A stretch of 64,000 nt of DNA from Scilla litardierei (lineage: Eukaryota; Streptophyta; Magnoliopsida; Asparagales; Asparagaceae), in assembly GCA_030789695.1 (NCBI GenBank), contig CM061142.1, positions 148,139,266 through 148,203,265 of the forward strand, in the 5' to 3' direction. This document shows, piece by piece, positions 12,155-64,000 of this stretch; position 1 is the stretch's first letter, and each line of letters begins with the position of its first letter. A program made the translations under genes and the position numbers. The notes below the pieces were generated by a model, which worked only from the letters and a program-made list of their open reading frames with translations, made no database searches and had not been told where the DNA came from.

Positions 12155-12175
12155 GTGTGCTGTTGAGCTCATTCT

Positions 12176-12807: not shown

Positions 12808-12842
12808 AGGAAGAAAGAAGAGGAGAAGCTGCAAAATCAGCT

Positions 12843-13172
12843 CACTCGGCCGTGTGGATCAGACCACTCGACCGAGTGAGATTGATCCCGGCCAAGCCCA
12901 AGCCCCGAAGCGCGTCAAAGATACTCGGCTGAGTCAAACTTTCACTCAATCGAGTGAAAAGCCCACTATACCGTGTGGAGAAGGAAAAGCTGGAACCAGA
13001 ACGCTTATTTTGAAGATTCCTGCAGGAGCTCCTACTCGACCAAGTGAGATGGCCACTTGACCGAGTGAGCCGATCACTCGACCGAGTGGCCAGAAGATAC
13101 AGAGCGCCGAATTTTGAAGATTTTCTGTAGAAACTTCCACTCGACCGAGTAAAACTTTCACTCGGCCGAGTG
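12843..13172 (+). repeat. U3 palindrome array, element B 5' LTR
   Basis: About ten copies of the ACTCG(N)(N)CGAGT word are present, mostly the CGACCG variant. Several are damaged by point mutation, for example the copies near 12845 and 12967. Confidence 0.9.
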
Positions 13173-13255
13173 TGTCGCCAGCCCAGATTTGAAAACTAGG
13201 GTTTGTTTAGGTTTGAGGGTATGTTGGTCAGCTTTTTCCTAGGATTTTGAGTCAG

Positions 13256-13263
13256 TATAATTA
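13256..13263 (+). promoter_or_regulatory. TATA box of element B 5' LTR (degraded)
   Basis: TATAATTA lies 83 bp after the array. The partner LTR has the intact TATAAATA at 23839. Confidence 0.5.
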
Positions 13264-18635: not shown

Positions 18636-19024
18636 ACTCGGTCGAGTGATATTCTCACTTGACCGAGTGAACCCTCACTCGGCCGAGTGAGAATACTGAT
18701 CAGGGAAGTATAAAAACTCAACTCTGTATATTTATACCACTTGATCGAGTGGATCAATGTAGCAGAACCTGAAAAATCAATGCTCTGTGAAGCCCCTCTG
18801 CTCGATCGAGTAACTAGTTCACTCGATCGAGTGACTAATCCACTCGGCCAAGTGGGAGATTGTAGCCGAAATCTTGAAATTGGTTTTCTGTCTCATCTTC
18901 TGACTCGATCGAGTGACTCATCTCACTTGGTCGAGTCAGTCGACCCGACGACACTATCAAAAATCCTAAATGATCTGTCGTTCTGGGTCACCTGATCGAG
19001 TGACCAATGTCACTCCACCGAGAG
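18636..19024 (+). repeat. Internal palindrome array between pol and ORF1 (B)
   Basis: About twelve copies of ACTCG(N)(N)CGAGT are present. Here the CGATCG and CGGTCG centres are common, unlike in B's LTRs, where CGACCG dominates. The array is followed after 19 bp by a TATA box. Confidence 0.92.
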
Positions 19025-19043
19025 ACTTAAGTCGCCAGACACT

Positions 19044-19051
19044 TATAAAAA
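19044..19051 (+). promoter_or_regulatory. Internal TATA box upstream of the ATHILA-ORF1-like gene (B)
   Basis: TATAAAAA in acttataaaaaggg is a strong plant TATA context. It is placed as in A, directly downstream of the internal array and upstream of a CT-rich leader containing AAACCCTAA (19221-19229). Confidence 0.65.
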
Positions 19052-19258
19052 GGGAAATTGAGCTCGATTGAGCTCTTCACCCAAATCGATAGCAGCCACC
19101 CCCTTCCCTTCAAAACCTATCGACTCGACCGAGCATCTTAGCATTACTCGACCGCGGCACCAACCTGCACCACCTCCGGCCACCGAACTTCGGACCACCT
19201 CTGACCACATCCTCTCTACTAAACCCTAATTTGCTTCCCATCTCTTTCCCTCTATCTC

Positions 19259-23105: not shown

Positions 23106-23124
23106 AGGTAAGCTTGGTGGATTT
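23106..23124 (+). other. Polypurine tract of element B
   Basis: aggtaagcttggtggattt directly precedes the LTR's TG. It matches A's tract except at the GGGG core. Confidence 0.7.
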
Positions 23125-23261
23125 TGATATGCTTATACTTTACACTTTATTTTCGCATATTTCCATGCCATATCGATCTCCAATATTGCGAATTCAAAGC
23201 TTAAACGACGATTTCTCGACAATTTTCACTATTTCTATGTTTCGTTGGATTTTCAGAAAAT

Positions 23262-23492
23262 ATGGAGCAATCGGGAGCAAATTGGAGCTATGAGCCTATA
23301 CACGCGTGCCGGAGCATCAGCGACGATGATATCGAGCTCACCGTGCTTAAATATGAGAAGAAGCGGAAGGAAGAGAAGAGAAAGATGAAGGAAGGAAGAA
23401 AGAAGAGGAGAAGCTGCAAATCAGCTCACTCGACCGAGTTGATCAGACCACTCGTCCGAGTGAGACTGATACTGGCCAAGCCCAAGCCCTAA
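23262..23492 (+). CDS. U3 small ORF, element B 3' LTR
   Basis: This 76-residue ORF starts MEQSGANWSYEPIHA and is then Lys/Glu/Arg-rich, reading into the first palindromes. It follows gattttcag|aaaat. It is the closest B counterpart of A's ORF at 1001-1417. Function unknown. Confidence 0.4.
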   Translation: MEQSGANWSYEPIHACRSISDDDIELTVLKYEKKRKEEKRKMKEGRKKRRSCKSAHSTELIRPLVRVRLILAKPKP

Positions 23493-23756
23493 AGCACGTC
23501 AAAGAAATTCGGTCGAGTCACACTTTCACTCGACCGAGTGAAAAGCCCACTCGACCGAGTGGAGAAGGAGAAGCTGGAACTAGAACGCTTATTTTGAAGA
23601 TTCCTGCAAGAGCTCCCACTCGACCGAGTGAGACGGCCACTCGACCGAGTGAGCCGACCACTCGATCGAGTGGCTAGAAGATACAGAGCACCGAATTTTG
23701 AAGATTTTCTGCAGAAAGTTCCACTCAACCGAGTGAAACTTCCACTCGGTCGAGTG
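23427..23756 (+). repeat. U3 palindrome array, element B 3' LTR
   Basis: About ten well-preserved copies are present. Three in the middle follow a strict 21-bp period: CACTCGACCGAGT, 8-bp spacer, repeated. Confidence 0.93.
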
Positions 23757-23838
23757 CGCCACTGGCCCAGATTTGAAAACTAGGTTTGTTTAGGGTTGAG
23801 AGTATTTTGGTCAGCTTTTTCCTAGGATTTTGAGCCAG

Positions 23839-23846
23839 TATAAATA
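23839..23846 (+). promoter_or_regulatory. TATA box of element B 3' LTR
   Basis: TATAAATA in ccagtataaataggtag lies 82 bp after the array, the same spacing as in A's LTRs. Confidence 0.65.
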
Positions 23847-24881
23847 GGTAGTTTCATGAGCCGTCAAAAAGAGAGACGACACAGCTAGAGATCATAGAGA
23901 AGACTCAACTTTTATTTGCTATTGTTTTTGATTGGAGATCTATTCTTAATTCTCTTGTTGGATTGAAGCCTTGGGATTCATTGGTTTGTCTAAACTCTTG
24001 TTCTATTCAGTTTTTATGATTATTTCTTGTTTAGTTCTCTTCTCTATGATGATTTTAATTGTCTCCATGAATTCTATTGGTTTGATCATGATTTTTTGTG
24101 AGTAGTCTCTTTGCTCTAGGAGAAAGGGATGAACACTATGAATTTAGAGCTTGATATGTGAAATTTAATGAAAACCCATGTTGCTAAACTTATTTTAGGG
24201 TTAGATTATGATTGATCTACCCCAAATAGCCAGAGATTTATACTTAGATCTTGAGAGCTCGAGAGAGGATCTTGGTCTATAGGAAGCCCTAGATATTTGA
24301 TTTAGATCTATAATTTGGATATCCTAGATTTGGTGTGTGGGAGCGACCAAAGCTAGCATCTTTATTATATTTCTATAATTATATTCGTGTATACAATGGT
24401 AAGACAAATACGAACCATCATAATCTAGATTCGAACTCACGTTGCATGACAGTGAACTTGAGCGAGAATTGAATTATATTTTCGATCTTAATGCTAATAA
24501 TTTAAACTAGACTTGCGAGACAGCAAGGTTCTACTTTGAATTATTATAGACTTGCATAGCTCCAGAGCGTGCACTAGTTCACAACAAAGTTGCGACAATT
24601 TCACCCCAAATTGAGAGTTAGTAATTGGGAGTTCATATTCACACTGATGCTCGAAAATCTATAGTGTAGATTCCCTAGTCCTAAGCATTCTTATTAATTA
24701 AATTTACATCAGATATTTCTACATGTTCGTGACATACACATTTCTTCACCATTGTTCCATCCGTGCCACATAACCAAGATAATACCAATAGTTTTCCCCG
24801 TGATTCAAATACCCTCTTACCACTTAACCATGCGATTGTAGTAAAAGTACATTGTTTTCTGAGTACATCCAGACACGATCA

Positions 24882-25231: not shown

Positions 25232-27513
25232 TGTGTATGCCCTCGAGGCAATTTATCTCTTTGTATGTGTACAAACATCTTGTTCGAAATAACAGTAAGC
25301 TGTTTAGTAATAATTTATCTAAGTTAATAATAACGTAGTCTACATTAGAACTCAAGTAAAGTCCTGAGACTTGATGTGAGGTTAAATAAGTATCGAGATG
25401 AGGATCTCGATTATGGAGAATTGCTTGATCGTTTGTAGCATAAGTCTAAAATCGTTCGTGACCGTAGATGTTTCGGGAAAAGAATGTTGATACATCGAAT
25501 AGACCATTGTGTCTTTGTCTTCACCATGGAGTGGTGACAATGATCTCACGGTCGTTCGACTTGGCGAAGTCGGAGACGAGACACATGTGCTCATTGGAGA
25601 GTGAGTTCACTGAACAACCCAATGGGAGTTATCATATGGTTAACATTGACTACTCTGTCAATGATGATAGGCAAGTTTGTCCTTAGACTTGAGTTCATTG
25701 TACGTATCTGTAAGTGAATGGTGTCACTTAGATCCCTGACCTAGCTTCGAGGCAAGGCCTGTTGAAAGGTCTTTGGTTGGGTGACACTTGAAGCGTGTGA
25801 GGAGAGTAATGACAAAGAAAGTATTTGCCTCTCCCGTTTATAGAGAGTTAGTGGCGCACGTGTTAGTTCGGTCTTTAGTAAAAACTATGGCCAGAGTATG
25901 TTGGAAGAAGTCCAACATTATTTGACTAAAGACCGATAGAGACTAACTGGTTTCGAGCTATTGGGGTTGACAGTTGACCATAACCTTGGCTTGGCTAAGA
26001 GGCATAATTATGACGAAGGGACTAAAACTGCGGTATTCATCACAGATACAGTCAAAGTGATCCAGATGACACTTTAATCAATCGGTCAATCACGTAATTA
26101 TGATACCAAACCAGAGACAACACATGCTGCTCATGGTTAATATCGTCTAGAGGTTTCGAGCTCCAACCTGTAGTAGGGCCAGGCTGTAGGTCTCACACCG
26201 AGTAGAATTTGTGTCTTAGTAATAGGAAGGATTTAGGAGGAGTGCACTCGGGTGCACGAGAATAATGAAATACACAAAGGGTTTGTGACTATAATTCTAT
26301 AAATATTAAATGGAAATTATAATATGTCATAAAGTGTTTTGGACATATGATGCATAGAAATAAAGAGAGGATTTTTTCACGAAAGTCGAGGAAAAAACCG
26401 CGCTCGAATCGGAGTCAAAATGGACCCAGAATGTCTATTTAAAAGAGGTTTTAAACAGAAACTAATAAAAATGAGCCATAATTTGCTTAGCCCATTAGGC
26501 CGGGCCAAAGGAGAATCTGGTGCCCCTTGTGGGTGCCAGATGCGCCCAAACTTGGGTGCGTGCCTTGCACGCGTGTGGCTCATGTTGGGCCACACTGCTT
26601 AGGTTTTTGAAACCTGTAATGTGGACTGCTTTTTTTTTATAGAACAACGTCTTTTTGGCCAATTTTGAGCCAATGTTTTAGGGGACAAACAAAGTCAAAT
26701 TTGAGCGCCGTTTGTTTCTATGAGTTCACCGTTCAGTGCTCTTCGAGTTGATATTTGATATCACTTGCAAAGCTCAACGGTGAGGGATGAAAAATTCGTT
26801 AAAGTTTGGCCTTAATGTAAGGTAAAATAAATTAATTTTTTCCCTCTAAATTGATTAGTCACACATCGCTCGTGAGACGAGGAAGGAGGCCGGCTCTCTG
26901 TATAAATAGGGGCTGAGCCTCCCCTTTGAACCTACACTAAGTCTTCGCTTTGGTTAGCTCCAAAAAGTTTGAGCACACCCGAACTTAGACTAATAATTAT
27001 TCACTCATCCTAAAATTCTTTCATTCCTCCGTTCAAGTCGTAGCAAGATGGTGAGGAGGGTTGGATTGGATCCAAAGTCTTTGACGCTGGTCCTGCTCAA
27101 GTGAAGCTTTCTTTAGCAAGTGGTTGTCTTGGAAGCACGATATTGGCTCGCCTTGGGACACGATTTATCTCGGGACGTGGTTTGGCTCGGGAGAAGTGGC
27201 TCAACCCTAATGCGTGGCATCGCTTCGGAGATAAAGACATGTTGCTGAAAACGACGCTTCACGCGGTAGCGAAGTGACGGGTATGTTAATTTATTTTATG
27301 CTTTCATAAATGTTGCAATAATTTAGATCTATCTTTGGGGTTGGTCAGACCCACCCCAAGATAGTAGATTTTTGTGGTTAAGGTTAATGTAATCCTTAGG
27401 GTTGTCATTAAATAGTTTAATGAATTCTTCTGCTGCCTTTTTCTGATTCCATCGTCTGTCCGATGTAGGACGGGCGTAGATTTTATGCCCTGATGGTCCA
27501 TCAAAACCATACA
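25232..27513 (+). repeat. 5' LTR of element C
   Basis: This 2282-bp LTR starts TGTGTATGCCCTCG and ends ACCATACA. Collinear copies occur in the three fragments downstream. The solo LTR H shares the ATGCCCTCG start and the TATA region. Confidence 0.88.
26901..26908 (+). promoter_or_regulatory. TATA box of element C 5' LTR
   Basis: TATAAATAGGGG is followed by CT-rich sequence. It is conserved in H (49231) and in the 3' LTR piece (59397). Confidence 0.65.
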
Positions 27514-47330: not shown

Positions 47331-47620
47331 TGTAACGACTGGTTTTCATGTATCTGGATTTATTATAATATAATATATGTTTTGGTGGATTTTCTCCTCA
47401 TGTGTGGTTTTCGTCTCCGTAGCTTTCATTTTCGATCGATTCGTCGTATTTTCTCGTTTCTTCCTTAGGATTGTCGATTTCGAAGTATGTCATTCGTGAC
47501 GGACTTCATAACGGTCGTATCTTACTATTAGATCAAGCCTAGGAGTCTTAGGAATCGATCCCGGGGCCCCGCGCTCCGTATCGGAACTTTTGGTGCTTAT
47601 TAGCCGGTATAAGAAGGGGC

Positions 47621-48130
47621 ACCGACCGACTAGATGACGATCCAGTCGGTCGACAATCCTTCTTGGACCGACTAGTTGGCTTTCTAAATTTCTCAGGAGT
47701 TACTGTTTATCGTTAGTCGGTCTAAGAACGTTGGTTGACCGACTAGGTTGCAAACTAGTCGGTCGGCAATGCATCTTTAACCGACTAACACATCATCTAA
47801 ATTTTAGTATCAGTACTGTTCATTCTTAGTCGGTCTAAGTTCATCTTTCGACCGACTAGTTGTTAAACTAGTCGGTTAAGTTTTGTACTCAGACCGACTA
47901 ATTCTTGGTTCTACTGTACAGTCGAGTTACTGTTTACTCTTAGTCGGTCTAAGAACGTTCATCGACCGACTAGATGCTAAACTAGTCGGTTAGTATTTGT
48001 TCATGGACCGACTAAATCTAAATCCTATTTTCGTTCAGAAGTTACTGTTTACACTTAGTCGGTCTGCGTTGGTCGACCGACCGACTAGTTGCCAAACTAG
48101 TCGGTCAGTGGTTGCTCTTTGACCGACTAA
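47621..48130 (+). repeat. U3 array of TAGTCGGTC/GACCGACTA boxes (F 5' LTR)
   Basis: Boxes alternate in orientation: ttagtcggtc, then gaccgactag, then ctagtcggt, then gaccgactaa. The unit repeats at 112-115 bp (ttagtcgg near 47713, 47825, 47940, 48055). The inner pair forms a hairpin with a 7-9 nt loop. The array ends 43 bp before the TATA box. AAACCCTAA (48140-48148) lies between them. Confidence 0.92.
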
Positions 48131-48173
48131 TCTGTGTTAAAACCCTAATTTCTGGGCAGCCACCAGCCCAACC

Positions 48174-48181
48174 TATTTATA
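48174..48181 (+). promoter_or_regulatory. TATA box of element F 5' LTR
   Basis: TATTTATA in acctatttatacccc, followed by a CT-rich stretch typical of a plant transcription start and leader. Confidence 0.6.
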
Positions 48182-49230
48182 CCCCTCCCAAACGTTTTCT
48201 TCTTCCTCTACTCGACCCAAAACCCTAAAATCTCCCCATTGAGCCCCCATCTTCCTCCAAGCCTTGTTCCTTCATCCCAAGCCCTAGATTCATCTTCTAA
48301 ACCCTCCATCAACTCTATCTACCTCTCATCTTCCCCAAAATCTCACCAAATCCCCAAAATCCCCCAAAAACCCTAACTCTCCAAACTTCTCCATTTGTTT
48401 CCAGATCTGGTCCTAGGGTTCTCCGGAGTGTTTCTTCCGCTTCCTCTCGGTAGAAATCGATCTCTCGATGTTTTCATAACCTATTTGTATTTTTGTGAAA
48501 CCCTAATGAAATTTCATGTTGTTTGATGATTGTTTCCCCATAACAGCGATTTCCCCCGTAGATTAGCATCCGCGAGACGAACCTTCATGATCGTCGTCCC
48601 CGGTGCTAGTCAAGTGAAACTTGTGTAGAGGAATATGCCCTCGGATCATTTGTATTTGATGCAAATGATAATTGAAGCTTAGATATGGACTATTTTGCAT
48701 TTGATGCAAAAGATATTAAATGTGTCTTAAATTGTTTAAGACTATATTTAATTAAATAAATGCGTTGAAAAGGTTGCCTAGATGACGGGATCGTCCTGCT
48801 CTAAACGCAGGTTCAAACCGCATCAAAAACGGAGTCCAAATGCATAAGTTATAGCCAAAACAAGTCAGCCCAAACTGTTGGGCTGAAACCTGCGAAAATG
48901 GAGGCCCACCAAGCCCGAATTTTCTGGTTAGGGTTTTTGAAACCTGGGATTTTCTTGACGGCTACGTTTCTAAGAGAAGCATGACTTTTGGCTATCTTTG
49001 GACAATTGTTTGAAGGGTCAAACGGACTCGGATTGACGAGCCGTTTTTTCCTACGCGTTCACCGTTGAACACCCTTCGAATTGATTAGTTGTATCAATCA
49101 TGAAGCTCAACGGTGAGTGAGTTAAATTCACGGAAGTTTGCACTTTGTGAAGTGCAAACTAACTTGATTTTGATTAACTCAAATTAATAGTCCCACATCG
49201 GATTTTGAGAAAGGGGAGTAGTCAGCCGCC

Positions 49231-49240
49231 TATATAAATA
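49231..49240 (+). promoter_or_regulatory. TATA box of solo LTR H
   Basis: TATATAAATA in cgcctatataaataggggt, at the position equivalent to C's TATA box. Confidence 0.6.
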
Positions 49241-49496
49241 GGGGTCTGCTCTCCTCCTCAAAACTCGTCCCAAGCTCTAGATCTGAGCGGCTCTCGTAAA
49301 TGTTGGAGCACGCTCGGATCTAAGCTAAATTAATATTTCTCCTCTCCCTATAAATTACTGCCTTGCTCCTGAGGGCTCTAGCAAAGCCGCAAAGGAGTTC
49401 GGATTCAGATTCGAAATCTAGGCGGAGGTTTCACTCGCGTGAAACTTTCTTCGGTGGTGGGTGGCTCGGCGACACGGGGATTGATCGCATCGGGAT

Positions 49497-49570
49497 GCGG
49501 AGCGGTTCGAGGAGCGGTGCGGGGAGCGGTTCAAGGAGCGGCTCGGCATGAGACGGGAGCAGCTCGGAAG
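49497..49570 (+). repeat. Short GGAGCGGTTC tandem in H
   Basis: Four near-copies of a 10-12 bp unit (gagcggttcgag and variants) occur in a row. The overlapping Ser/Gly/Arg-repeat frame results from this. Confidence 0.7.
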
Positions 49571-49844
49571 ACGGCGCGGAACATCTCGCCTGCCCCAGGG
49601 CTGAGATTCCGGGTATGTGTTTAAGTTTTCATTTAATTATTCGCAGTAGTTAGATCCCTCTTGGGGTGGTCAGATCCACCCCAAGTTGGCAGAGTTCCTG
49701 GCTAATAGGGTCTGGTTCCTTAGAGTTGCATGTTAATTAGATTAACATAAAATTTTTCCGCTGCATTTCTGTCTATGTTCCGTCCGACTTAGGACGGGAC
49801 TAGAGTTTTTGTGCCCTAAGGGTCCCAGAAAACCCTTCAACTTG

Positions 49845-51216
49845 CCACTTAGGGTTTAGGCCATGTTTTAGGCCATTTGCTTGTCGTAGGCGTAAAAGAG
49901 GCTAGGCGACGAAATGATACTCGCCTAGGCACAAATTGGGGAACTAGCTTGACAACGAAGCTAGTTCCGACATTTAGCATGTTGCACAATTACCATGTCA
50001 TGTTTACTTTCCATTAACGGTACGCAATTTAATTGTCATGTCATTGCATTCTTTAAGTGATCCCGTGATTGCGTATCATCGCTACAATACTTGTGTTTCC
50101 TGGCTCGTGACCAGAAGCGAGCATAATGAGTTGCTAACCCCAACGCTCGATATTGAATTATGAACTTGGAAAACAAGCTCCCGTGCGGGGCAACCCTGGC
50201 TCACTTGCTGGGCTCATGTGCAGGGACCCTGGCTTGTTTACGTGTGGGATGGGGTAAGGGTTAAGCGGCCATTCAACTGGGAGTCTGCCTGATCAGCAAC
50301 TGCAGTTGTAAGGCGTAAACTCTGGGTGGGGTAGTGTTTAGTGCCGATCAGTGTGAATGATGTACCATTCAGCTGAAGGGCGTAAACATCTATAAAACAA
50401 CGTGAGACGTGAATAGTGAATTGATTGAGGTTGATAGTAGCTTGACTACTCTTGTCGTGTCCCGATGATGGTTCTCTTGTACAAATTGTCTTGCCATGTC
50501 TTGATTGTGCACTCATGTTATAACTGCCATGTCACGCATACTAAAACTGCTAGGATGCTAGTTGCCTTACTTTCAGTTTCCTTGCCCAAGTCTCTTAGAC
50601 TTGCTGACATGTGCCCCTTTACTCTTTTGGGTGACACATGTTAGATCCTGAGCCTGAGTACCTTGTTGAGGACGAGGTGTTTGCTGACGCCGAGCCCGAG
50701 CTTGTGTTTGACGGGGAGTACGTGGACACTGGGGACCAGTCCTAGTGTCTTCGTTGTGTTTTACTTTTGTTTAGACTGTTGTTTTGTTATCGGTGCGTAG
50801 CACCTATACTTTGTTATGTCGTTGCTTTTGTTGGCATTGTTCTAGGCCTTTAGACTCTTTCTTTTAGCCTGGTGGCTTTTCTGGATGTTGGACAACTTAT
50901 GAGATGTGAGATTTTATTTCAGTCTCTCCTTGTGTTATTATTGTTGTTCCATTGTGGTTACAGGGACCTGCTTATGTTTTATTGACGCTTATCAGGTTTG
51001 GGGCTTCACAGCTCCACTCTCGTGCGGACCTTTTCACGTCTCGCCTCCATTTTAGGGAAGCGGGTCGTGACAGGTTTTGTTGGTGGCCCATGCAGGTCCT
51101 TCTGTAACTGCGATTATCGGAATATCGATAATAATATTAGAATGTCCAATAAACTAAGTTCGACGTCCGATGTCATAAGCTATGAGTCTAATCTGATTCG
51201 TTCTCTGTGTCACTAG
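49845..51216 (+). other. U5 side of F 5' LTR and gag leader
   Basis: The LTR continues to 51072; the leader is 51073-51216. No gene is supported. The expected primer site is not clear: the sequence after the LTR reads ggttttgttggtggccc, which is not a tRNA-Met or tRNA-Asp complement that I recognise. Confidence 0.5.
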
Positions 51217-52336
51217 ATGGCAGGAAGACGATTCACCCGTGGTGGGGGTAGTGGTGCGCTCCCTCATGATGAGGAGCCTGAGCGGGAACCCACCAACGGT
51301 GAGATGATGCGGATGATGCAAGTGCAGCAAGGCGTGCTTCTGCAAGTCCAGAATGCTCCACTTGCTCGAGCTGCCCGGGCTCTTCCAGATGCCCCTCGCT
51401 CTGAGCTAGGAGCGAAGCAATTTCGGGAGCTGGGTCCCGCATATTTTGATGGGTCTGAGGGTCCTTTGGCTGCCGATTAGTGGATTCGGAACATCGAGGA
51501 CAATCTGAAGATGGCCAAGATCACCCCGGCTGGATGGGTTGATTTGGCGAAGAGGCAACTCAAGGATAATGCTCGGAATTGGTGGGATGCGGAAGAGATG
51601 ATGTTAGTGGAGCCGATAGCTTGGGCTACCTTCAAGGCCAGATTTGAGGGTGAGTTCTTTCCGAAGGCTGCCAGGGAAGAGATGCTGCAGCGTTTTATCG
51701 ACTTGAAGCAAGGGAGCTCGTCGGTGGACCTGTATCACCAAGAGTTCATGAGGCTGAGTCGGTTTGCACCAAAGATGGTGTAGGACGCTGAGGAGAGAGC
51801 TCAGAGGTTCCTGCAGGGACTTGCTTCGGAGCTCCAGAGTTTTGTGACCTCTTCTGACTGGGAGTCTTATCAGAAGGTTCTAGTAGCAGCCAAGAGGCAG
51901 GAGCTGCTCGTGAACCAGAGGAGGGTGTCTGTTGTTGGTGCTGGGAAGAGGCCTGTGGAACAGGCGAGAGCTGTGGTTAGACCTGGATTCAGGCCTAATC
52001 AATCTGCTCAGTTTAAGAGGCCAGGAGGGCCTATTCTGAAGACTTGCCATTTCTGCGGCAAGCCTGGCCACATCAAGGATCAGTGTAGGAAGTTTTTGGG
52101 CCAGTGTCTGGTTTGTGGTGATGCTTCCCATGTCGCGAGGGATTGTCGGCATGCAAGACAGCTGCGGAGGGCACCTGTTGCAGCTCAGCCGTTGCAGCAG
52201 CGAGCATCTGTTCCTGCTGGACGTGGAGCAGCTCTTGTTCCACAGGGACAGGCTTTTCGGCAGGCTGTTCCGCCGAGGAGGCAGGCTTTTCTGATGACCG
52301 CTGTGGAGAGCGAGGCTGTGGATGAGGTTATCGCAG
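51217..52336 (+). pseudogene. gag: Chromovirus gag, first exon of F gag-pol
   Basis: A single frame of 373 codons is interrupted by TAG at 51478-51480 and 51781-51783. The central Retrotrans_gag domain (WIRNIEDNLK, AKRQLKDNARNWWD, FKARFEGEFFPKAARE) spans residues about 88-200. Two zinc knuckles follow, CHFCGKPGHIKDQC at about 276 and CLVCGDASHVARDC at about 298. Both stops fit CAG-to-TAG changes. The start is the first ATG of the frame (MAGRRFTRG). The exon ends mid-codon at a GT splice donor. The product would be the particle and RNA-binding protein. Confidence 0.88.
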
Positions 52337-52449
52337 GTAATCCTCAATCTAGCTGTTACTTTCCTAGCTGGTTTTGATTGCTAGATTGTGTTGTTTGCTT
52401 GAACATGGTTGTTTGCTAGACTAGGGTTTGATTGTTAATTGCTTGTTAG
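52337..52449 (+). other. Putative intron 1 in F gag-pol
   Basis: 113 nt, T-rich, GTAATC at the start and cttgttag at the end, with several stops inside. Its removal joins EVIAG to VVLVCTFPARVLFDSGAS with no extra or missing residue relative to related protease regions. The length is not a multiple of three, so without removal the protease is out of frame. Confidence 0.7.
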
Positions 52450-54869
52450 GTGTGGTTTTGGTGTGCACATTTCCTGCACGAGTTCTCTTTGACTCTGGTG
52501 CATCGATGTGCATTATTTCCCGGAGCTTCGTGGAGAGGCATTCCTTGTCGACGTCCCCTCTTCCCAAGAGTTGGAATATCGTTACAGGGAATGGCGTGGT
52601 CACGGTGCATCGTGGTTGCAATTCTTGCTCGTTGGTGGTCTGTGGACATGAGCTCTTCGCTGATTTCATTGTCCACGACATCATCAACTATGATGCAGTT
52701 CTTGGGATGGACTGGCTTGCGAGCTTCTATGCTACGATTGACTGCAGGAGGAAGAAGGTGGTGTTCGAGATTCTCGGACATCCAGTATTTGAGTTCAGTC
52801 GTGGTAGCAGTTCGCTTGGTCCTGTCAGATTTTGGGCCAGGCCGGTGGGGGTTGTGGCTATGCAGATGGAGCTGGAGTGGCCAGCTGTGGTGCGTGATTT
52901 CGGCGACGTCTTCCCCGAGGAGATGTTTGGTTTGCCACCTGATCGAGCTTTAGAATTCTCTATCGATCTTGTTCCAGGTGCGCAGCCGATTTCGAAGGCG
53001 CCGTATCGTATGGCACCTGCAGAATTGGAGGAGTTGCGGAAGTAGCTGGATGAGCTTTTGCAGAAGGGTTATATTAATCCTAGCGTGTCTCCGTGGGGAG
53101 CACCGGTGTTGCTGGTAAAGAAGAAGGATGGTTCGCGTCGCATGTGCGTGGACTATCGGGAGTTGAATGCGGTGACCATCAAGAATAAATACCTGTTGCC
53201 TCGCATCGATGATATTTTTGATCAGCTTGGAGGTTCGAGGGTGTTTTCTAAATTGGATTTGAGGAGTGGTTACCATCAGTTGAAGGTGAAGAAGGATGAT
53301 GGTCTGAAGACAGCGTTCAGGACGAAGTATGGACACTATGAGTTCGTGGTTATGCCTTTCGGCGTGACTAACGCGCCCGCAGTTTTCATGAATCTGATGA
53401 ACCTGATTTTCTACGAATTTTTGGATAAGTTTGTCGTTATCTTTATTGATGACATTCTGATCTATTCGAAGTCGGAGGAAGAGCATGCCTCGCACTTAAG
53501 GACGGTGTTGGAGATTTTGAGGAAGCATCGGTTGTATGCTAAGTTTTCGAAGTGCGAGTTTTGGCTGGATAGAGTTGCTTTTCTTGGGCATGTGGTGACT
53601 GGAGATGGTATTTCAGTGGATCCCGAGAAGATTAGGGCCATCAGGGAGTGGCCTGTTCCGTCGTCTGCGTCTGAGATTCGGAGTTTCCTTGGACTTGCTA
53701 GTTACTATCGGCGATTCATTAAGGACTTTTCTCGTATTGCTGAGCCGATGACCAGGGTGACGTTGAAGGATGTTGCTTTTGTTTGGTCGGGTGATTGTGA
53801 GAGTGCTTTTGGTATTCTGAAGGAGAGGTTGACGACTGCCCCTATTCTTGTTGTGCCTGATCGCAGCGGTGGATTTGAGATCTTTTGCGATGCTTCTGGC
53901 AAGGGTCTCGGTTGTGTGTTGCATCAGCATGGGTATGTTGTGGCATATGCGTCACGTCAGCTTAAGGTTCATGAGAAGAATTACCCGACGCATGATTTGG
54001 AGTTGGCTGCCGTTGTGTTTGCTCTTAAGATTTGGAGGCACTTCCTGCTGAGTGAGAAAGTGAAGATTTTCACTGATCACAAAAGCTTGAAGTATATTTT
54101 CATTCAGAAGGAGCTCAACATGCGACAGTGTCGATGGTTGGAGCTTATGGCGGATTATGAGATTGATTTGCAGTTTCACCCTGGCAAGGTGAATGTGGTT
54201 CCAGATGTTTTGAGTAGGCTTCCAGCGGTGATGATTTTGACCTCGCAGTGGAGATTGCAGCAGGATTTTTGCGAGTCTGGCGTGGAGATTGTTCTTCCTG
54301 GGGAGGATTCGTCGTTGATGTACATGCAGGTACAGTCGACGATCGTGGATCGGATTAAGGCTGGCCAGGCTGAGGATCTGAAGTTGGTAAAGATTCGGGA
54401 GCAGGTGGAAGCCGGTCTGTGGACTGACTTTTTGATTCATGAGGATGGCTCGCTGAGGTTTGGAGCCAGGCTGTGTGTGCCAGCTGGGGATATTAGAGAG
54501 GAGTTGATGGTGGAGGCACACAGTTCGCCGTATTCTGTGCATCCTGGTGGCACCAAGATGTACCAGGATCTTCGTCTGAATTATTGGTGGCATGGTATGA
54601 AGAGGAGTGTGGCTCGGAGTGTAGCCAAGTGTTTGGTTTGCCAGCAAGTGAAGGAGGAGCATCAGCGTACGGCCGGGTTGCTACAACCGCTTCCGATTCC
54701 GGAGTGGAAATGGCAACACATCACTATGGATTTCGTGACTGGACTACCTCGGAGTCCGAAGCAGAATGACGCGATTTGGGTGATCGTAGATCGATTGACC
54801 AAATCTGCGCACTTTATTCCGTTCCGAGTGGGACAGTCCACTGAGGCGCTAGCGAGGAGATATATGGAG
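52450..54869 (+). pseudogene. pol: Protease, RT, RNase H and N-terminal integrase, second exon of F gag-pol
   Basis: One frame with a single TAG at 53043-53045 (ELRK*LDEL; Gln expected, CAG to TAG). Protease carries VLFDSGAS. RT follows with [42 protein letters not shown] and the active site FIDDIL. RNase H has [13 protein letters not shown] and [11 protein letters not shown]. Integrase has the zinc-binding segment ending KCLVCQQVK and the first catalytic Asp in [10 protein letters not shown]. The exon ends after RRYME at a GT. These enzymes copy the element RNA to DNA and insert it. Apart from the amber codon the exon looks intact. Confidence 0.93.
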
Positions 54870-54940
54870 GTAAATTCTTTTACTCTCCGTTTTATTTCCT
54901 TTTTCCTAGTTTGGATAGTGATGTGACGTGAATCGTGCAG
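54870..54940 (+). other. Putative intron 2 in F gag-pol, inside integrase
   Basis: 71 nt, GTAAAT to CGTGCAG, strongly U-rich. It lies in the integrase core between the first and second catalytic Asp. Removal joins ARRYME to EVVRLHGVPVSIVSD in frame, which matches the usual chromovirus spacing exactly. Unremoved, the frame ends at a stop at 54924. Confidence 0.72.
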
Positions 54941-55843
54941 GAGGTCGTGCGACTTCATGGAGTCCCCGTGAGTATCGTGTCGGACAGAGACACGAGGTTC
55001 ACATCTCAGTTCTGGTAGAGTTTACAGAAAAGCTTGGGTACGCGTCTGAGTTTTAGCACGGCGTACCATCCGCAGACGGATGGCCAGTCCGAGAGGACGA
55101 TTCAGATTTTGGAAGACATGCTGAGGGCATGCATGTTGGATTTCAAAGGTTCGTGGGAGGACCATCTGCATTTGGTGGAGTTCTCTTACAACAACAGCTT
55201 CCAGGCGAGTATTGGCATGGCGCCTTTCGCCGCTCTTTATGGGAGGAAATGTCGATCGCCATTGAGTTGGGATGACGTTGGTGATCGGGAGCTGTTGGGA
55301 CCTGAGATGGTCGTGGAGGCCGTGGATATCGTCAGGAATATTCGGGAGAGGTTGAGGATTGCTCAGGACCGTTTTAAGCATTGGGCGGATGCTAAACGTC
55401 ATCCTTTGGAGTTTCAGCCGGGCGACCATGTGTTCTTGAAGATTTCCCCGAATCGTGGTGTGATTCGTTTCGGGAAGCGAGGGAAGTTGAGCCCGCGATA
55501 CATTGGACCGTTTGACATTTTGGAGAGGGTTGGCGAGGTAGCTTATCGCTTGGCCTTGCCGCCATCTTTGGAAGGAGTTCACAATGTTTTCCATGTGTCG
55601 CAGCTTCGTTGATACATTAGCGATCCATCTCATGCTGTGGATTTTTCGGAGATTACCGTTCGCCCAGATTTGACGTATGACCAGCATCCAGTGCAGATTC
55701 TGGACAGGCGTCAGAAATCGCTTCGGAACAAGATTGTCAATCTTGTGAGGGTGATGTGGCGACACGGCTCACCTGGAGAGTCTACTTGGGAGAATGAGGA
55801 TGAGATGTGAGAGCGTTTCCCACTTTTGTTTCCGGACTCGTGA
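54941..55843 (+). pseudogene. pol: Integrase C-terminal half and chromodomain, third exon of F gag-pol
   Basis: VSIVSDRDTRF and SERTIQILEDML carry the second Asp and the catalytic Glu. GPFDILERVGEVAYRLALP and HNVFHVSQLR close the integrase. A chromodomain-like segment follows: VQILDRRQKSLRNK, VNLVRVMWRHG, ESTWENEDEM. Stops are TAG at 55016-55018 (FW*SLQ), TGA at 55610-55612 and TGA at 55808-55810, before the final TGA at 55841-55843. The TGAs fit CGA-to-TGA changes. The chromodomain would guide insertion to marked chromatin. This is the defining feature of chromoviruses. Confidence 0.88.
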
Positions 55844-55875
55844 ATATTCGGAAATTCCGAGGACGGAATTTTTCT

Positions 55876-55889
55876 TAAGTTGGGGAGGA
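55876..55889 (+). other. Polypurine tract of element F
   Basis: aagttggggagga directly precedes TGTAATGACTGG at the 3' LTR start. Confidence 0.85.
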
Positions 55890-56179
55890 TGTAATGACTG
55901 GTTTTCATGTATCTGGATTTATTATAATATAATATATGTTTTGGTGGATTTTCTCCTCATGTGTGGTTTTCGTCTCCGTAGCTTTCATTTTCGATCGATT
56001 CGTCGTATTTTCTCGTTTCTTCCTTAGGATTGTCGATTTCGAAGTATGTCATTCGTGATGGACTTCATAACGGTCGTATCTTATTATTAGATCAAGCCTA
56101 GGAGTCTTAGGAATCGATCCCGGGGCCCCGCGCTCCGTATCGGAACTTTTGGTGCTTATTAGCCGGTATAAGAAGGGGC

Positions 56180-56689
56180 ACCGACCGACTAGATGACGAT
56201 CCAGTCGGTCGGCAATCCTTCTTGGACCGACTAGTTGGCTTTATAAATTTCTTAGGAGTTACTGTTTATCGTTAGTCGGTCTAAGAACGTTGGTTGACCG
56301 ACTAGGTTGCAAACTAGTCGGTCGGCAATGCATCTTTAACCGACTAACACATCATCTAAATTTTAGTATCAGTACTGTTCATTCTTAGTCGGTCTAAGTT
56401 CATCTTTCGACCGACTAGTTGTTAAACTAGTCGGTTAAGTTTTGTACTCAGACCGACTAATTCTTGGTTCTACTGTACAGTCGAGTTACTGTTTACTCTT
56501 AGTCGGTCTAAGAACGTTCATCGACCGACTAGATGCTAAACTAGTCGGTCAGTATTTGTTCATGGACCGACTAAATCTAAATCCTATTTTCGTTCAGAAG
56601 TTACTGTTTACACTTAGTCGGTCTGCGTTGGTCGACCGACCGACTAGTTGCCAAACTAGTCGGTCAGTGGTTGCTCTTTGACCGACTAA
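56180..56689 (+). repeat. U3 array of TAGTCGGTC/GACCGACTA boxes (F 3' LTR)
   Basis: Same as 47621-48130 with a few substitutions. It ends 43 bp before the TATA box at 56733. Confidence 0.92.
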
Positions 56690-56732
56690 TCTGTGTTAAA
56701 ACCCTAATTTCTGGGCAGCCGCCAGCCCAACC

Positions 56733-56740
56733 TATTTATA
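56733..56740 (+). promoter_or_regulatory. TATA box of element F 3' LTR
   Basis: TATTTATA at the same spacing from the array as in the 5' LTR. Confidence 0.6.
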
Positions 56741-58412
56741 CCCCTCCCAAACATTTTCTTCTTCCTCCACTCGACCCAAAACCCTAAAATCTCCCCCATT
56801 GAGCCCCCATCTTCCTCCAAGCCTTGTTCCTTCATCCCAAGCCCTAGATTCATCATCTAAACCCTCCATCAACTCTATCTACCTCTCATCTTCCCCAAAA
56901 TCTCACCAAATCCCCAAAATCCCCCAAAATCCTAACTCTCCAAACTTCTCCATTTGTTTCCAGATCTGGTCCTAGGGTTCTCTGGAGTGTTTCTTCCGCT
57001 TCCTCTCGGTTAGAAATCGATCTCTCGATGTTTTCATAACCTATTTGTATTTTTGTGAAACCCTAATGAAATTTCATGTCGATTGATGATTGTTTCCCCA
57101 TAACAGCGATTTCCCCCGTAGATTAGCATCCGCGAGACGAACCTTCGTGATTGTCGTCCCCGGTGCTAGGCAAGTGAAACTTGCCACTTAGGGTTTAGGC
57201 CATGTTTTAGGCCATTTGCTTGTAGTAGGCGTAAAAGAGGCTAGGCGACGAAATGATACTCGCCTAGGCGCAAATTGGGGAACTAGCTTGACAACGAAGC
57301 TAGTTCCGACATTTAGCATGTTGCACAATTACCATGTCATGTTTACTTTCCATTAACGGTACGCAATTTAATTGTCATGTCATTGCATTCTTTAAGTGAT
57401 CCCGTGATTGCGTAGCATCGCTACAATACTTGTGTTTCCTGGCTCGTGACCAGAAGCGAGCATAATGAGTTGCTAACCCCAACGCTCGATATTGAATTGT
57501 GAACTTGGAAAACAAGCTCCCGTGCGGGGCAACCCTGGCTCACTTGCTGGGCTCATGTGCAGGGACCCTGGCTTGTTTACGTGTGGGATGGGGTAAGGGT
57601 TAAGCGGCCATTCAACTGGGAGTCTGCCTGATCAGCAACTGCAGTTGTAAGGCGTAAACTCTGGGGTGGGGTAGTGTTTAGTGCCGATCAGTGTGAATGA
57701 TGTACCATTCAGCTGAAGGGCGTAAACATCTACAAAACAACGTGAGACGTGAATAGTGAATTGATTGAGGTTGATAGTAGCTTGACTACTCTTGTCTTGT
57801 CCCGATGATGGTTCTCTTGTACAAATTGTCTTGCCATGTCTTGATTGTGCACTCATGTTATAACTGCCATATCACGCATACTAAAACTGCTAGGATGCTA
57901 GTTTCCTTACTTTCAGTTTCCTTGCCCAAGTCTCTTAGACTTGCTGACATGTGCCCCTTTACTCTTTTGGGTGACACATGTTAGATCCTGAGCCTGAGTA
58001 CCTTGTTGAGGACGAGGTGTTTGCTGACGCCGAGCCCGAGCTTGTGTTTGACGGGGAGTACGTGGACACTGGGGACCAGTCCTAGTGTCTTCGTTGTGTT
58101 TTACTTTTGTTTAGACTGTTGTTTTGTTATCGGTGCGTAGCACCTATACATTGTTATGTCGTTGCTTTTGTTGGCCTTGTTCTGGGCCTTTAGACTCTTT
58201 CTTTTAGCCTGGTGGCTTTTCTGGATGTTGGACAACTTATGAGATGTGAGATTTTATTTCAGTCTCTCCTTGTGTTATTATTGTTGTTCCGTTGTGGTTA
58301 CAGGGACTTGCTTATGTTTTATTGACGCTTATCGGGTTTGGGGCTTCACAGCTCCACTCTCATGCGGATCTTTTCACGTCTCGCCTCCATTTTAGGGAAG
58401 CGGGTCGTGACA

Positions 58413-58819: not shown

Positions 58820-59879
58820 TATAAGTCTATAATTATTAAATGGGAATTAGAATATATTATAAAGTGTTTATGGACACGTGATGCGTGGAAATAAAGAGAG
58901 GATTTTTTCACGAAAGTCGGGGAAAAAACCGCGCTCGAATCGGAGTCAAAATGGACCCAGAATGTCTATTTAAAAGAGGTTTAAATAGAAACTAATAAAA
59001 AATGAGCCATAATTGGCCCAGCCCATTGGGCTAGACCAAAGGAGAATCTGGCGCCCCTTGTGGGCGCCAGATGCACCCAAACTTGGGCGCCCAGAATGCT
59101 GGGCACGCGGGGCTGCTTAAGTTTTTGAACCTATAATGATGGCTATGTTTTTTATAGAACATCGGGGTTTTGGCTAACTTTGAGCCATCGTTTGAGAAAT
59201 CAAACGAAGTCAGATTTAAGCGTCGTTGGTTTCTGTGTGTTCACCATTCAGTGCTCTTCAATTTGATATATGATATCACTTGCGAAGCTCAACGGTGAGG
59301 GAGGGAAAATTCGTTAAAGTTTGGCCTTAGTGAAAGGCAAACTAAATTAATTTTTCCCATCTGAATTGATTAGTCCCACAAGGGGTCCTAGCTCTCTATA
59401 TAAATTGGGGTTAAGCCTCCCCTTTGAACATGCACCAAGTCTTCGTTTCGTGTAGCTCCAAAAAGTTTGAGCATGCCCGAACTTAGACTAATAAATATTC
59501 TCTCATTAAAAAATTCTTCCATTCATCCGTTCGAGTCCTAGCAAGACGGCGAGGACGTTTGGATCGGATTCAAATTCTTTGACGCGGGTCCTGCTCAAGT
59601 GAAACTTTCTTCGACGAGTGGTTAGCTCAGAGGCATGGTGTTGGCTCGCATTGGGATGCGGTTCAGTTTGGGACATTGTTCGGCTCGGGAGAAGCGGCTC
59701 AGCCCCAACGCGGGGCATCGCTTTGGAGATTAAGACAGGTTGCTTAAAACGACGCTTCGCGCGGTAGCAAAGTGACGGGCATGTTAATTTATTTTATGAT
59801 TTCATTAATGTTACAGTAGTTTAGATCTGTCTTTGGGATTGGTCAGACCCACTCTAAGATAGTAGATTTTCCTGGTTAG
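58820..59879 (+). repeat. 3' LTR of element C, piece 3
   Basis: Matches about 26288-27379 of the 5' LTR, including a TATA box (TATATAAA, 59397-59404). It is cut by G after ggttag. Confidence 0.88.
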
Positions 59880-60278
59880 TGTTGAGTATTGATTCCCCAG
59901 ATTTGGTTTTGATGATGAACAAACATAAATATCGTGAACTAACTCTTTGTGAGCGCAGTTATGGAGATCGTCGCCAAAATTCTATGAACATCTAAAGCGA
60001 CGTCTCAAGACTTCTCAAAGCGCATGATCGTGTGCCTAAAGCTTCGTTGAAACTCTAGGAGTATTATTGAAGTCAAGAGATTCGGAATGAAGCTTTTGAA
60101 GACGGTTCGTCAAGTTTTATTTATAGTCTTCTAGCTTCTTTTCGTAGAATGTTAAGCCTTGAGTAGGTCTTACGTTTTAATATTCATTACGCTCATATCA
60201 TTAGAGCTAGGATCTTATTAGAAGCCCATAGAATCTTTCCCGAAGCTTAACGCTTCTTATCGCGGCTTCTTGTGTATG

Positions 60279-60808
60279 TTAGTTGGTTCAAGAAGAAGAA
60301 CCAACCGACTAGATGACAATTTAGTCGGTCGACAATCCTTCTTGAACCGACTAGAATGCCTTGTTCATTTTCAGCTCATTTACTATTTATAGTTAGTCGG
60401 TCCAAGAAGGTTCACCGACCGACTAGTTGTCAAACTAGTCGGTTAGGAATCCTTCCTAGACCGACTAGTTGAGCTTTCACTGTTCAGCCTAACTTACTGT
60501 TTACAGTTAGTCGGTCAAAGAACAACGGCCGACCGACTAGTTGAGAAACTAGTCAGTTAGAATTTGTTCTTAAACCGACTAGCTGTCTTTGAATTCAGCC
60601 TACTCTATTTTCATCTGTTAGTCGGTCAAAGAACACTCACCGACCGACTAGTTGTGAAACTAGTCGGTTGGCAAGTCTTCTTAGACCGACTAGTTCTTTA
60701 TTGTCTGAACTTCTCTTTTGGCTGTTCTCCAGTTAGTCGGTTCATGTTGAATCACCGACCGACCAGTTGAGAAACTAGTCGGTCAGTGATCCTTCTTTGA
60801 CCGACTAG
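60279..60808 (+). repeat. U3 array of TAGTCGGTC/GACCGACTA boxes (copia element G)
   Basis: Same box words, alternating order and period (ttagtcgg near 60393, 60507, 60618, 60733; spacing 111-115 bp) as the F array. It ends 68 bp before the TATA box. Confidence 0.92.
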
Positions 60809-60876
60809 ACTACTTCAGAGTAGAGCCGTTGGAGCATTAAATGCCACGATTTTTTTGCTCTCTCTTTCCTCTATCC

Positions 60877-60884
60877 TATATATA
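60877..60884 (+). promoter_or_regulatory. TATA box of element G 5' LTR
   Basis: TATATATA in tatcctatatatacttg, downstream of the array and upstream of a leader with many agagaatc-type words. Confidence 0.6.
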
Positions 60885-61610
60885 CTTGAAGGGCTTCTTG
60901 CTAAGCATTCAAGGCTGATATTTATTTTATTGAAGTTTAGAGAATCAAAGAGAAGCATTTATTCTCATTTCCAAGCTCATTCATTTCTCTAGAATCTCTC
61001 TCTTACTCTTATTTCTAAAGAGAGATTCACATTGATTGTGAGCCATTCAAGCCAAGAGCTTGATCCAAGGTCACCAACATCTTCCTAGGCTTCCATTGCT
61101 GGTCAACATCTTGGAGCTAGGGTTTGGTGCCTTCATCTTCCCCAAAATCCTTCTTGCCCTAAAATCGTAAGTTTTACTCAAGGCATAGGGTTTTGTGGTA
61201 AGAATTTCTTATTTCATTTACATTGCTATTGTAAGTTTTTCTCTCGGTTGTCAGAGTTGTTTGTGATCCCGATTTGTGGGAGTCACAATTTCATTTGTGT
61301 ATGATTTGATCTTGTAGAGGTTTTCTACAAGTATTTCATAGTGCAAATTTGAGTTAGAGGTTTCTAACTTAATTATCCGGAGGGGATCCGGGTGTTTGGG
61401 ACGTAAGATCACCGGGAACAAGTCGGAGAGACTTGGGTGGATCCGAACCCGTTATATCGTCTGTTTGATTGTATTTCTTTGTTGTCAATATTTTCATTTC
61501 TGCATTATTGGTTGAGTTTGCAAGATAATTAGGAATTATCTTCTTAATTATTTTAAAGTACTATTCACCCCCCTCTAGTACTTGTGCAGTAGCTATCAGG
61601 ACATTACATT

Positions 61611-61623
61611 TGGTATCAAAACC
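61611..61623 (+). other. Primer binding site, tRNA-Met type (element G)
   Basis: TGGTATCAAAACC resembles the initiator tRNA-Met complement with two changes. It lies about 2 bp after the LTR end. Confidence 0.75.
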
Positions 61624-61635
61624 AAGTTCATAGCT

Positions 61636-63386
61636 ATGTCTACCAACGACAATAAGAACGTTCGCCCACCTTCAGACTATAGCACCTTCAGGAACCGTGA
61701 AGGAGCTTCTTCGGTGATGGAAGGACACTCCTCGACTAGGCCTCCTTTCTTCAACGGTATCAATTACGGGTACTGGAAATGCCGGATGGAAACGTTCCTC
61801 CGGAGTGCTTCACTATGGAGAGCTACGTTGACGGAGTATGTCGAGCATGCAGAAGAAGATTTCTCTAACTGGACTACCGTGGAGGTCGCCGCGGAGGTAA
61901 GCAATGCCAAGGCAATGAATGCCTTGCAATGCGCTTTGGAGCCCGAAGACTTCAACAAGATATGCACATGTAAGAGTGCATATCAAATCTGGAACTCACT
62001 CCTCATCTTGTATGAAGGAACGAGTAGGGTAAGAGACTCCAAACTCGTTGTTATAAATAAAGATTACGAGTTATTTCATATGCAACAGGGTGAGAAGATG
62101 AAGGAGTACTATGCTCGCTTCGTTGACATCACCAACGAGTTGGAGGCTCTTGGAAAGACCTACACCCAAAAGGAGAAAGTCTCAAAGATCATTGACGGAC
62201 TTCCTTCTTGTTGGGAGAAGAGTACCTTCGCCATCGAGGAAGGTAACGATATGACTAAATATGATGTCATTCAACTAATGGGTACCTTGATGTCTTATGA
62301 GGTACGCAAGGACAGTAAACTAAAGTTGCAGGACACGATGAAGTCTTACTTGAAGCAAGACGAGCCAAAGAAAAAGGCGATTGCGTTCAAGGCCGCTCCA
62401 TCTACATCTACATCTACCGATGATGAAGATTTGGAAGACGAGTTGGACTTGGAATCCATTGCCCTCATGGCAAAGAAGTTCAACCGATTTTTCCGGAAAG
62501 GTAATTTCAAGAACAAATCTAAATTTAGTTCTTCTAACGCCTCCGCCCCTTTGTGCTTTAAATGCAATAAGCCAGGACACATGAAAGCGGATTGTCCTCA
62601 AAACAAGCAAAAGGAGAAGTGGAAGGCGCCAAAGTTCGACAAGTCAAAGAAGTACAAAAAGGGTACAAGAAAGGACTTGTCGGGACATTCACAGACTCTG
62701 ACGAGGATTTCTCAAGTGGAGAGTCAGATGATGAGCAAGTGGAGCAAGCATACATGTATTTCATGGCTAGAGAGGAACATGATCAAGGATCCTCATCCGA
62801 TGATAGCGAGGATGAAGGCGATGAGGTAACTATGGATGACCTTAGATTAGCTAACGAGCAAATTTGGTCTAAGTATTCTAAATTAGTAAATAGATATAAT
62901 AAGACTAAAGATGAGTTAACTAGTCTCCAAACCTCGCCTAAGCCTATCGTCATCAACAACGACACCGTTGTTGAAGACTTGAGAAATGAGATTGTAAATC
63001 TCAAATCTCAACTTGAGCATGTTCATATTAAGGAATCAGACGAACATGAGATAGCAGATTTGATTTCTCGAAACTCAACTTTGAGTATTGAGAATGAGAA
63101 TCTCAAGTCTCGTGTTTGTGCACTCACCACTCAAGTGTCCACTTTGGATGCTTCTATACTTTCTCTCACCGAGAAGTATGAGTCCATATTAGGCCGGATT
63201 AATAAATTCAATAAAGGTAAGGACCATTTGGATAATATCCTAAATGACTTACTTCCGACCAATCATCACATTGGCTTGGGTTATAAGATGGGAAATTCAT
63301 CCAAGTCGTCCACTACCTTTGTTAGGCCAACTTCCGATGCCTCAACGAGTGGGGGCAAACACCCCATTGGTAGTTCATCTACCAAT
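61636..63386 (+). pseudogene. gag: Copia gag of element G, frameshifted and interrupted
   Basis: Starts MSTNDNKNVRPP. The UBN2-type gag domain runs from PPFFNGINYGYWKCRME (about residue 36) to about 245, including NALQCALEPEDF and YEGTSRVRDSKL. An acidic linker and the zinc knuckle CFKCNKPGHMKADC (about residue 306) follow. A one-base shift between about 62650 and 62690 moves the frame from KFDKSKKYKK to KKGLVGTFTDSDED. The second frame continues through a coiled-coil extension (LRNEIVNLKSQLEHVH) to GSSSTN, where element I begins. Apart from the frameshift the sequence is clean, so G is fairly young. Confidence 0.88.
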
Positions 63387-64000
63387 TGTAACGACTGGTT
63401 TTCATGTATTTGGATTATCTATATTATATTATAGGTTTTGGTGGATTTTCTCCTTATGTGTGGTTTTCGTCTCCGTAGCTTTCATTTTCGTTCGTTTCGT
63501 CGTGATTTTCTAGCCTCTTCCTTAGATCGTTGAGTCTCGGAGTAAGTCATTCGTGACGAGCTTCATATCGCTCATATCTTAGTGATAGGTTGATCCTAGA
63601 AGCCGTAGGAATCTTCCCGAAGCTTCACGCTTCAATTCGGCACTTCCCGTGCACGTTAGTTGGTTCAAGAAGGGGAACCAACCACCTAGATTGAGATCTA
63701 GTCAGTCGGTAACTCTACTCGAACCGACTAGTTCATTGAATCAAATGTACAGAAGTTACTGTTTACTTTTAGTCAGTCTAAGAACAACCCCCAACCGACT
63801 AGATGTGAAACTAGTCGGTCAGAACTTGCTCTCAGACCGACTAGTTTCTGTCAGTAAATTTCACCTAAGTTACTATTTATCGTTAGTCGGTCTATGAACA
63901 CTCACCGACCAACTAGGTTGCAAACTAGTCGGTCGACGGGCCTTCACAGACCGACTAATTCATTACCCAGATTTTTCCCTACTTTCGCTGTTTGCTTTTA
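63387..64000 (+). mobile_element. Element I: LTR of an F-related chromovirus, cut by window end
   Basis: Starts TGTAACGACTGGTTTTCATG like F and stays alignable with F and with G's U3. Candidate left target duplication ccaat (63382-63386). Whether it is a solo LTR or the start of a full element cannot be seen. Confidence 0.88.
63656..64000 (+). repeat. U3 array of TAGTCGGTC/GACCGACTA boxes (element I, partial)
   Basis: The same boxes and about 110-bp spacing, with more mutated copies than in F. The upstream gttagttggttcaagaag phrase is closer to G than to F. Confidence 0.88.

Follow-up and report, generated by a model that had tools for sequence, protein, structure and literature searches.

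A module in the U3 regions of elements G, F and I

We analysed a 64-kb stretch of the Scilla litardierei genome (contig CM061142.1, positions 148,139,266 to 148,203,265), called the window below, in which the 5′ long terminal repeat (LTR) of a copia retrotransposon, element G, contains a block related to the LTRs of two gypsy elements of chromovirus type, F and I. The features that bear on this relationship are given here in window positions; L009 is the locus that continues element I past the window end, and other L numbers denote fetched genome loci.

59880..61608, plus strand: 5′ LTR (1729 bp, TGTTGAG...TTACA) of copia element G; boundaries agree with those of three relatives with matching target-site duplications (TSDs)
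60128..60277, plus strand: unique flank of the G module (G/I shuffle test; four-family alignment)
60278..60807, plus strand: array of five palindromic units in G (TRF period 111; unit alignment; RNA fold)
60877..60884, plus strand: TATA-like box TATATATA of G, 69 bp after the array (consensus match only)
61568-61573: polyC tract CACCCCCCTCTAG of G, about 29 bp short of the LTR end
after the G 5′ LTR: sequence TTTGGTATCAAAACC, resembling a primer-binding site (PBS)
61579..62826, plus strand: copia-type gag frame of G (Pfam Retrotran_gag_2, E 2.7e-25; zf-CCHC)
47331-58412, plus strand: gypsy element F, whole; TSD ATCGA, 2.5-kb LTRs
47331..51072, plus strand: 5′ LTR of F, which holds a nested insert at 48624-49839
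47450..48130, plus strand: module in the F 5′ LTR; the flank starts at about 47450, the array spans 47600-48130, and a TATA-like box lies at 48174
51073..55889, plus strand: internal region of F, gypsy (Pfam RVP_2, RVT_1, RT_RNaseH, Integrase_H2C2, SH3_Tf2-1)
55890..58412, plus strand: 3′ LTR of F, with the array at 56159-56688 and a TATA-like box at 56733
63387..64000, plus strand: beginning of the gypsy element I 5′ LTR; I is nested in G, and this LTR ends at L009:1844
from about 63508, plus strand: module in I; array from 63655 to L009:72, 72 bases of it beyond the window end

The initial annotation of this DNA had placed the G LTR at 59880-61608, coordinates that we confirmed, and had aligned a block of it from about 60180 onward with the LTRs of F and I; the alignment held, with a start nearer 60128. 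The module occupies about 680 bp of the G LTR (60128-60807), is homologous to U3 of F and I, and consists of about 150 bp of unique flank followed by palindromic units of about 111-114 bp, five in G, five in F and four in I, with a TRF period of 111 in G and 114 in F. By self-BLAST, G 60251-60807 was 71% identical to F 47572-48129 and G 60129-60557 was 72% identical to I 63508-63933, and F and I matched from the LTR start at 73.5%.

Homology was tested by comparing Smith-Waterman scores with those of dinucleotide shuffles. For the 180 bp of flank before the array, the score was 78 for G/I (shuffle mean 18.3) and 133 for F/I, each reached by none of 1000 shuffles; the arrays scored 278 (G/I), 302 (G/F) and 204 (F/I), each reached by none of 300. 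The LTR heads were at chance level, the G/I score being reached by 189 and the G/F score by 236 of 1000 shuffles, and 3′ of the array there was weak similarity, with scores of 33 for G/I (2/300) and 35 for G/F (0/300) over a shuffle mean of 24. It is this pattern across flank, array, heads and 3′ part that places the G module at about 60128-60807. A swap of the whole LTR was rejected, as the heads are unmatched and the 3′ part matches weakly; the exchanged portion is distal U3 only, and the LTR ends and core promoter lie outside it.

In an alignment of 13 units, from which the last unit of I was left out, the first units were orthologous: G1 was 83% identical to F1 and 79% to I1, and its closest other G unit stood at 77%. 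Each unit is a compound palindrome of about 76 bp within the 111-114-bp period; the arrays fold as RNA far better than shuffles (z of −15.75 for G and −12.62 for F), and 5 of the 26 consensus pairs of the unit hairpin are changed on both sides among the 13 units. The array ends 69 bp before the TATA-like box in G, 43-44 bp in F and 44 bp in I. RCCGAC words, which we take to be the core of a plant drought and cold element, occur 22 times in G, 22 and 23 times in F and 13 times in I when both strands are counted; shuffles average 0.31-0.34. Elsewhere in the window, including the copia LTRs C, D and E, the box array of G was not found. The self-BLAST matches, shuffle tests and TRF periods of 111 and 114 bear out the annotation's claim that a unique block and an array of the same 111-115-bp period were exchanged between copia and gypsy LTRs, and the common G/I flank and unit 1 orthology uphold its view that independent origin is implausible.

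F and I both have a gypsy-type reverse transcriptase (RT) and an SH3_Tf2-1 match; Integrase_H2C2 is present in F, and the Pfam matches in I were Retrotrans_gag, RVT_1 and SH3_Tf2-1. A Chromo match in I was sub-threshold (18.7 bits against the Pfam cut-off of 25.1), and similar residues with stops occur in F. In Cruz et al. 2014 (PMC4029996), U5 attachment sites of type A have GGG at −8 to −10; the end of I, AGGGCGTGACA, fits this type, and in the F LTR end, GGGTCGTGACA, the GGG is shifted by one. The two LTRs of F are 98.4-98.6% identical by self-BLAST. The internal regions of F and I are 89.6% identical, yet identity across the LTR head and U3 is only about 73%; either U3 evolves much faster than the coding part or it underwent further exchange. 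The 3′ LTR of I is interrupted about 70 bp in by another nested element (L009:6674 onward). The 1.2-kb insert in the F 5′ LTR (48624-49839, TGTAGA...CTTCA, 5-bp TSD ACTTG) is probably a solo LTR of another family, and one stretch shares about 70% identity with window positions 26595-26912 and 59137-59380.

Genomic copies and further carriers of the module

The window's own assembly (3.68 Gb) was searched with the G block, as the annotation had proposed, and with the U3 of F and I; the resulting counts are lower bounds and are silent on copies of other kinds. All 40 scored matches of the G block were near the full query length at 95% identity or more (40 of 9861 first-look candidates were scored), all 40 of the F U3 reached at least 98% over 828 bp (40 of 2679 candidates), and all 40 of the I U3 reached at least 92% over 614 bp (40 of 8960). 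Contigs C5244 and C4768 are possibly duplicates of one region, and the G counts may contain repeats. Inspection by eye of the 40 scored matches per query yielded candidate LTR pairs (8 for F, 9 for I and 6 for G; another F pair, on C6 with a spacing of 19.3 kb, was left out), and the match spacings fit such pairs: 8 for F at 7.2-8.6 kb and 7 of the 9 for I at 7.1-7.3 kb. An F-type LTR head was present in 30/30 fetched F loci, in 11 of which the chromovirus internal end lay directly upstream; L033, where the match is inverted and not adjacent, is excluded from these 11. Three further copies of the G family had the module in both LTRs, with matching 5-bp TSDs (CAACT, ACCCC and CCCTC) and LTR pairs that diverge by 3.0-3.3%.

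Two more copia LTRs contained the module. G2, an inverted LTR in L005, aligns with G across 947 columns, the head among them, at 79.8% identity; its flank scored 76 against I and 37 against F (each 0/1000 mononucleotide shuffles), and its head was at chance against both (538 and 892 of 1000 mononucleotide shuffles for I and F, respectively). G3, an LTR in L034 (2645-3581), is 75.6% identical to G over 949 columns. G3 sits nested in an F-family LTR, where two related arrays stand in direct orientation 1.3 kb apart. The carriers found comprise three copia subfamilies (G, G2 and G3, 20-25% apart) and two gypsy subfamilies (F and I).

In a maximum-likelihood tree of 12 modules, for which L031 was taken in place of L030 (the first unit of L030 fell outside the search expression), seven copia and five gypsy rows were split by one branch with support of 98/98. 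A tree of the array-flanking block, the other check that the annotation had named, returned the same split with support of 100/100. One branch between the copia and gypsy modules fits a single exchange, about as old as the split between F and I.

Affinities of the carriers and direction of transfer

The G family had most of the Sirevirus signatures tested. In L013, a relative of G, pol is copia-type (RVT_2, E 2.3e-76) and is accompanied by an env-like frame with PF20167. The polypurine tract AGGGGGAG lies at −10 from the 3′ LTR in two of three G-family copies, the third reading AGGGGAAG; the linker stretches scanned in three copies hold 2, 5 and 3 matches to AGGGGGA[GA]; and the Sirevirus PBS 9-mer TATCAGAGC, which in that group follows a long spacer, is present in both junctions examined, which read CA/TTTGG TATCAGAGC, the window copy reading TATCAAAAC. 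The polyC tract near the end of the G LTR is another Sirevirus signature. An inverted repeat was seen by eye at the 3′ LTR junction. The AT/TG attachment site was not found at the 3′ LTR, which read AA/TG in 3/3 copies; in Bousios et al. 2010 (PMC2829016) this site is given for 20 of 21 Sireviruses and so is not universal. We use the term Sirevirus-like because AT/TG is absent here and the assignment is made from signatures, not from an RT tree. In L013 and L015 the same boxes form a second cluster inside the element, after pol and ahead of the env-like frame. L018 and L020 have regions homologous to it, so that the array precedes the env-like open reading frame in the four fetched G-family copies showing that region. 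The cluster of L013 is 71% identical to the last F units and 72% to G units. The clusters, each before the env-like frame, are:

L013:5275-5519
L015:8655-8745
L018:300-456
L020:6427-6606

The modules described here resemble the Sirevirus repeated-motif (RM) boxes of Bousios et al. 2010 (PMC2829016) in being high-copy palindromic CGG/CCG boxes in the upper half of the LTR, shortly before TATA, with extras before env. Those boxes are described as absent from other copia elements, whereas here a homologous array stands also in gypsy chromovirus LTRs, and each unit is larger, a compound palindrome of about 76 bp recurring every 111-114 bp. The CpG islands of Del/Tekay LTRs (PMC4029996) may be a further parallel: Del clusters B and C have a CpG-rich stretch, variable in nature, in the 5′ portion of their LTRs, and cluster A, with all eudicot elements, predominantly has none; the accessible part of that paper reports no homology of a Del LTR to a copia LTR. 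The palindromes associated with small RNAs in maize Sireviruses (PMC10760457) are also structured and concentrated in Copia LTRs, and the same palindrome is common in Helitrons; the difference is that the array here stands in Ty3 LTRs.

Palindromic boxes of the ACTCGGCCGAGT type occur in each LTR of an Athila-type gypsy element on the minus strand of the window (LTRs about 1-1554 and 10932-12459; ATHILA ORF-1 match, E 4.3e-5) and recur internally, where they separate pol from an env-like frame (910-1237, 5969-6263 and 11794-12143); the internal ones stand just before a TATA-like CCTATATAAGC. This layout is that of env-bearing Sireviruses. Further clusters of Athila-type boxes lie at 12866-13161, 18677-19124 and 23428-23661, partly within an LTR pair at 12532-14259 and 23124-24881.

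We propose, at a probability of about 0.65, that a single exchange across superfamilies, with the U3 module donated by copia, accounts for its presence in a Sirevirus-like copia and a Del/Tekay-like chromovirus. In PMC2829016, palindromic boxes built on a CGG-CCG core lie a short way upstream of TATA in 13 of the 21 Sireviruses, none of the 30 other copia elements has them, and nine Sireviruses have extra boxes before env. Because box arrays before TATA are thus a described Sirevirus trait and the G family is largely Sirevirus-like, a copia donor is favoured; because the module tree is unrooted, this role is one that we infer, and we hold it to be reasonably probable. The annotation had stated in its title that G carries a gypsy U3, a direction that should probably be reversed: only distal U3 was exchanged, and the array class is described as Sirevirus-specific among copia elements (PMC2829016). 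Its supporting point, that the array is absent from copia LTRs C, D and E, is true in the window and weak as an argument on direction, since 8 of the 21 published Sireviruses also are without boxes (PMC2829016). A number of observations nevertheless weigh against our proposal. C, D and E have Sirevirus-like ends and no such array, and the Athila-type gypsy has box arrays of its own, of another sequence, so arrays are not confined to copia here. Not only is the tree unrooted, but four of its five gypsy rows are near copies, and that side therefore really represents two lineages. By itself, the 180-bp flank was not significant for G/F (score 21, reached by 205/1000 shuffles); the last unit is less clean than the first, G5 being closer to G2 (82%) than to F5 (78%); and the RNAalifold covariation term for the unit hairpin, +0.74, is unsupportive. 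Finally, the predominant lack of an LTR CpG island in Del cluster A, the cluster that lies nearest the outgroup and includes every eudicot Del element (PMC4029996), was counted in favour of a copia donor, yet the point assumes a eudicot host.

Capture of a chromovirus U3 module by an ancestor of the G/G2/G3 copia lineage would accord with the module's presence in two chromovirus families, both abundant, with its absence from C, D and E, and with the analogous arrays of the Athila-type gypsy; we nevertheless consider this direction unlikely, as boxes before both TATA and env are a described Sirevirus trait and both positions are occupied in the G family, the module is present in three copia subfamilies 20-25% apart, and Del cluster A predominantly is without islands. 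Less likely again is separate acquisition by both lineages from elsewhere, for instance from a host promoter or a transposon of another class: in maize no structured motif is commoner in Helitrons than the Sirevirus palindrome (PMC10760457), and free copies would escape notice when 40 places are scored per query, but the scored matches of each query span essentially the whole of it, the F head is present in all 30 fetched F loci, and an informal inspection by eye saw no TSD or terminal repeat at the module edges. Convergence, in which palindromic boxes evolved independently in both superfamilies, could appeal to the different palindromic boxes of other window elements, the Athila-type among them; it was rejected as highly improbable, since independent origin would not yield the non-repetitive flank in common or the orthology of the first units. 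The annotation had named as its refutation a chimera peculiar to this copy of G, whether an assembly error or a recombinant. The 3′ LTR of the window copy was indeed not found within the next 40 kb; the three TSD-matched relatives with the module in both LTRs, together with the 40 near-complete matches of the G block, rule such a chimera out for practical purposes, and the claim of exchange stands.

Possible routes, function and meaning

In the genomic RNA, U3 is located close to the 3′ end. A copia-to-gypsy transfer could have occurred if the template was switched twice within U3 while RNAs of both elements were packaged together, or if a copia LTR inserted into a gypsy U3 and was then trimmed; because of the position of U3 in the RNA, either route could reach both LTRs, one round of retrotransposition copying the chimeric U3 into each. 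In L034 a copia LTR did land in an F-type LTR, though downstream of the array. The boxes presumably are promoter-proximal binding sites, through which both superfamilies would answer the same host factors, and an enhancer role of the array is one that we infer from its position alone. Sirevirus boxes mainly recovered stress-related sites, and the authors call for experiments (PMC2829016).

Sirevirus box arrays are a known kind of feature, as is LTR exchange within a superfamily. Du et al. 2010 reportedly described LTR swapping in soybean, in which LTR sequence was exchanged between elements and then amplified; the partners are said to have been related autonomous and non-autonomous elements, not copia and gypsy, which are very distant relatives. 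What seems new here is a module of copia and gypsy with a common flank and first-unit orthology; among the titles and abstract openings searched, subscription papers being largely beyond reach, we found no U3 common to copia and gypsy.

Abundant families of both superfamilies in one genome have this promoter-proximal module in common, and with three copia and two gypsy carrier subfamilies the direction and timing of the exchange are testable. We suggest tentatively that U3 box arrays may be transferable control cassettes, one serving Sirevirus-like copia and Tekay-like gypsy elements and an analogous one serving the Athila-type LTR and a putative promoter upstream of env, and that a joint host response or expansion is possible. 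If this is general, similarity in U3 would be a misleading guide to annotating solo LTRs, unrelated families could react to one host signal and have common small-RNA targets, and the control regions of LTR retrotransposons would be an acquired trait.
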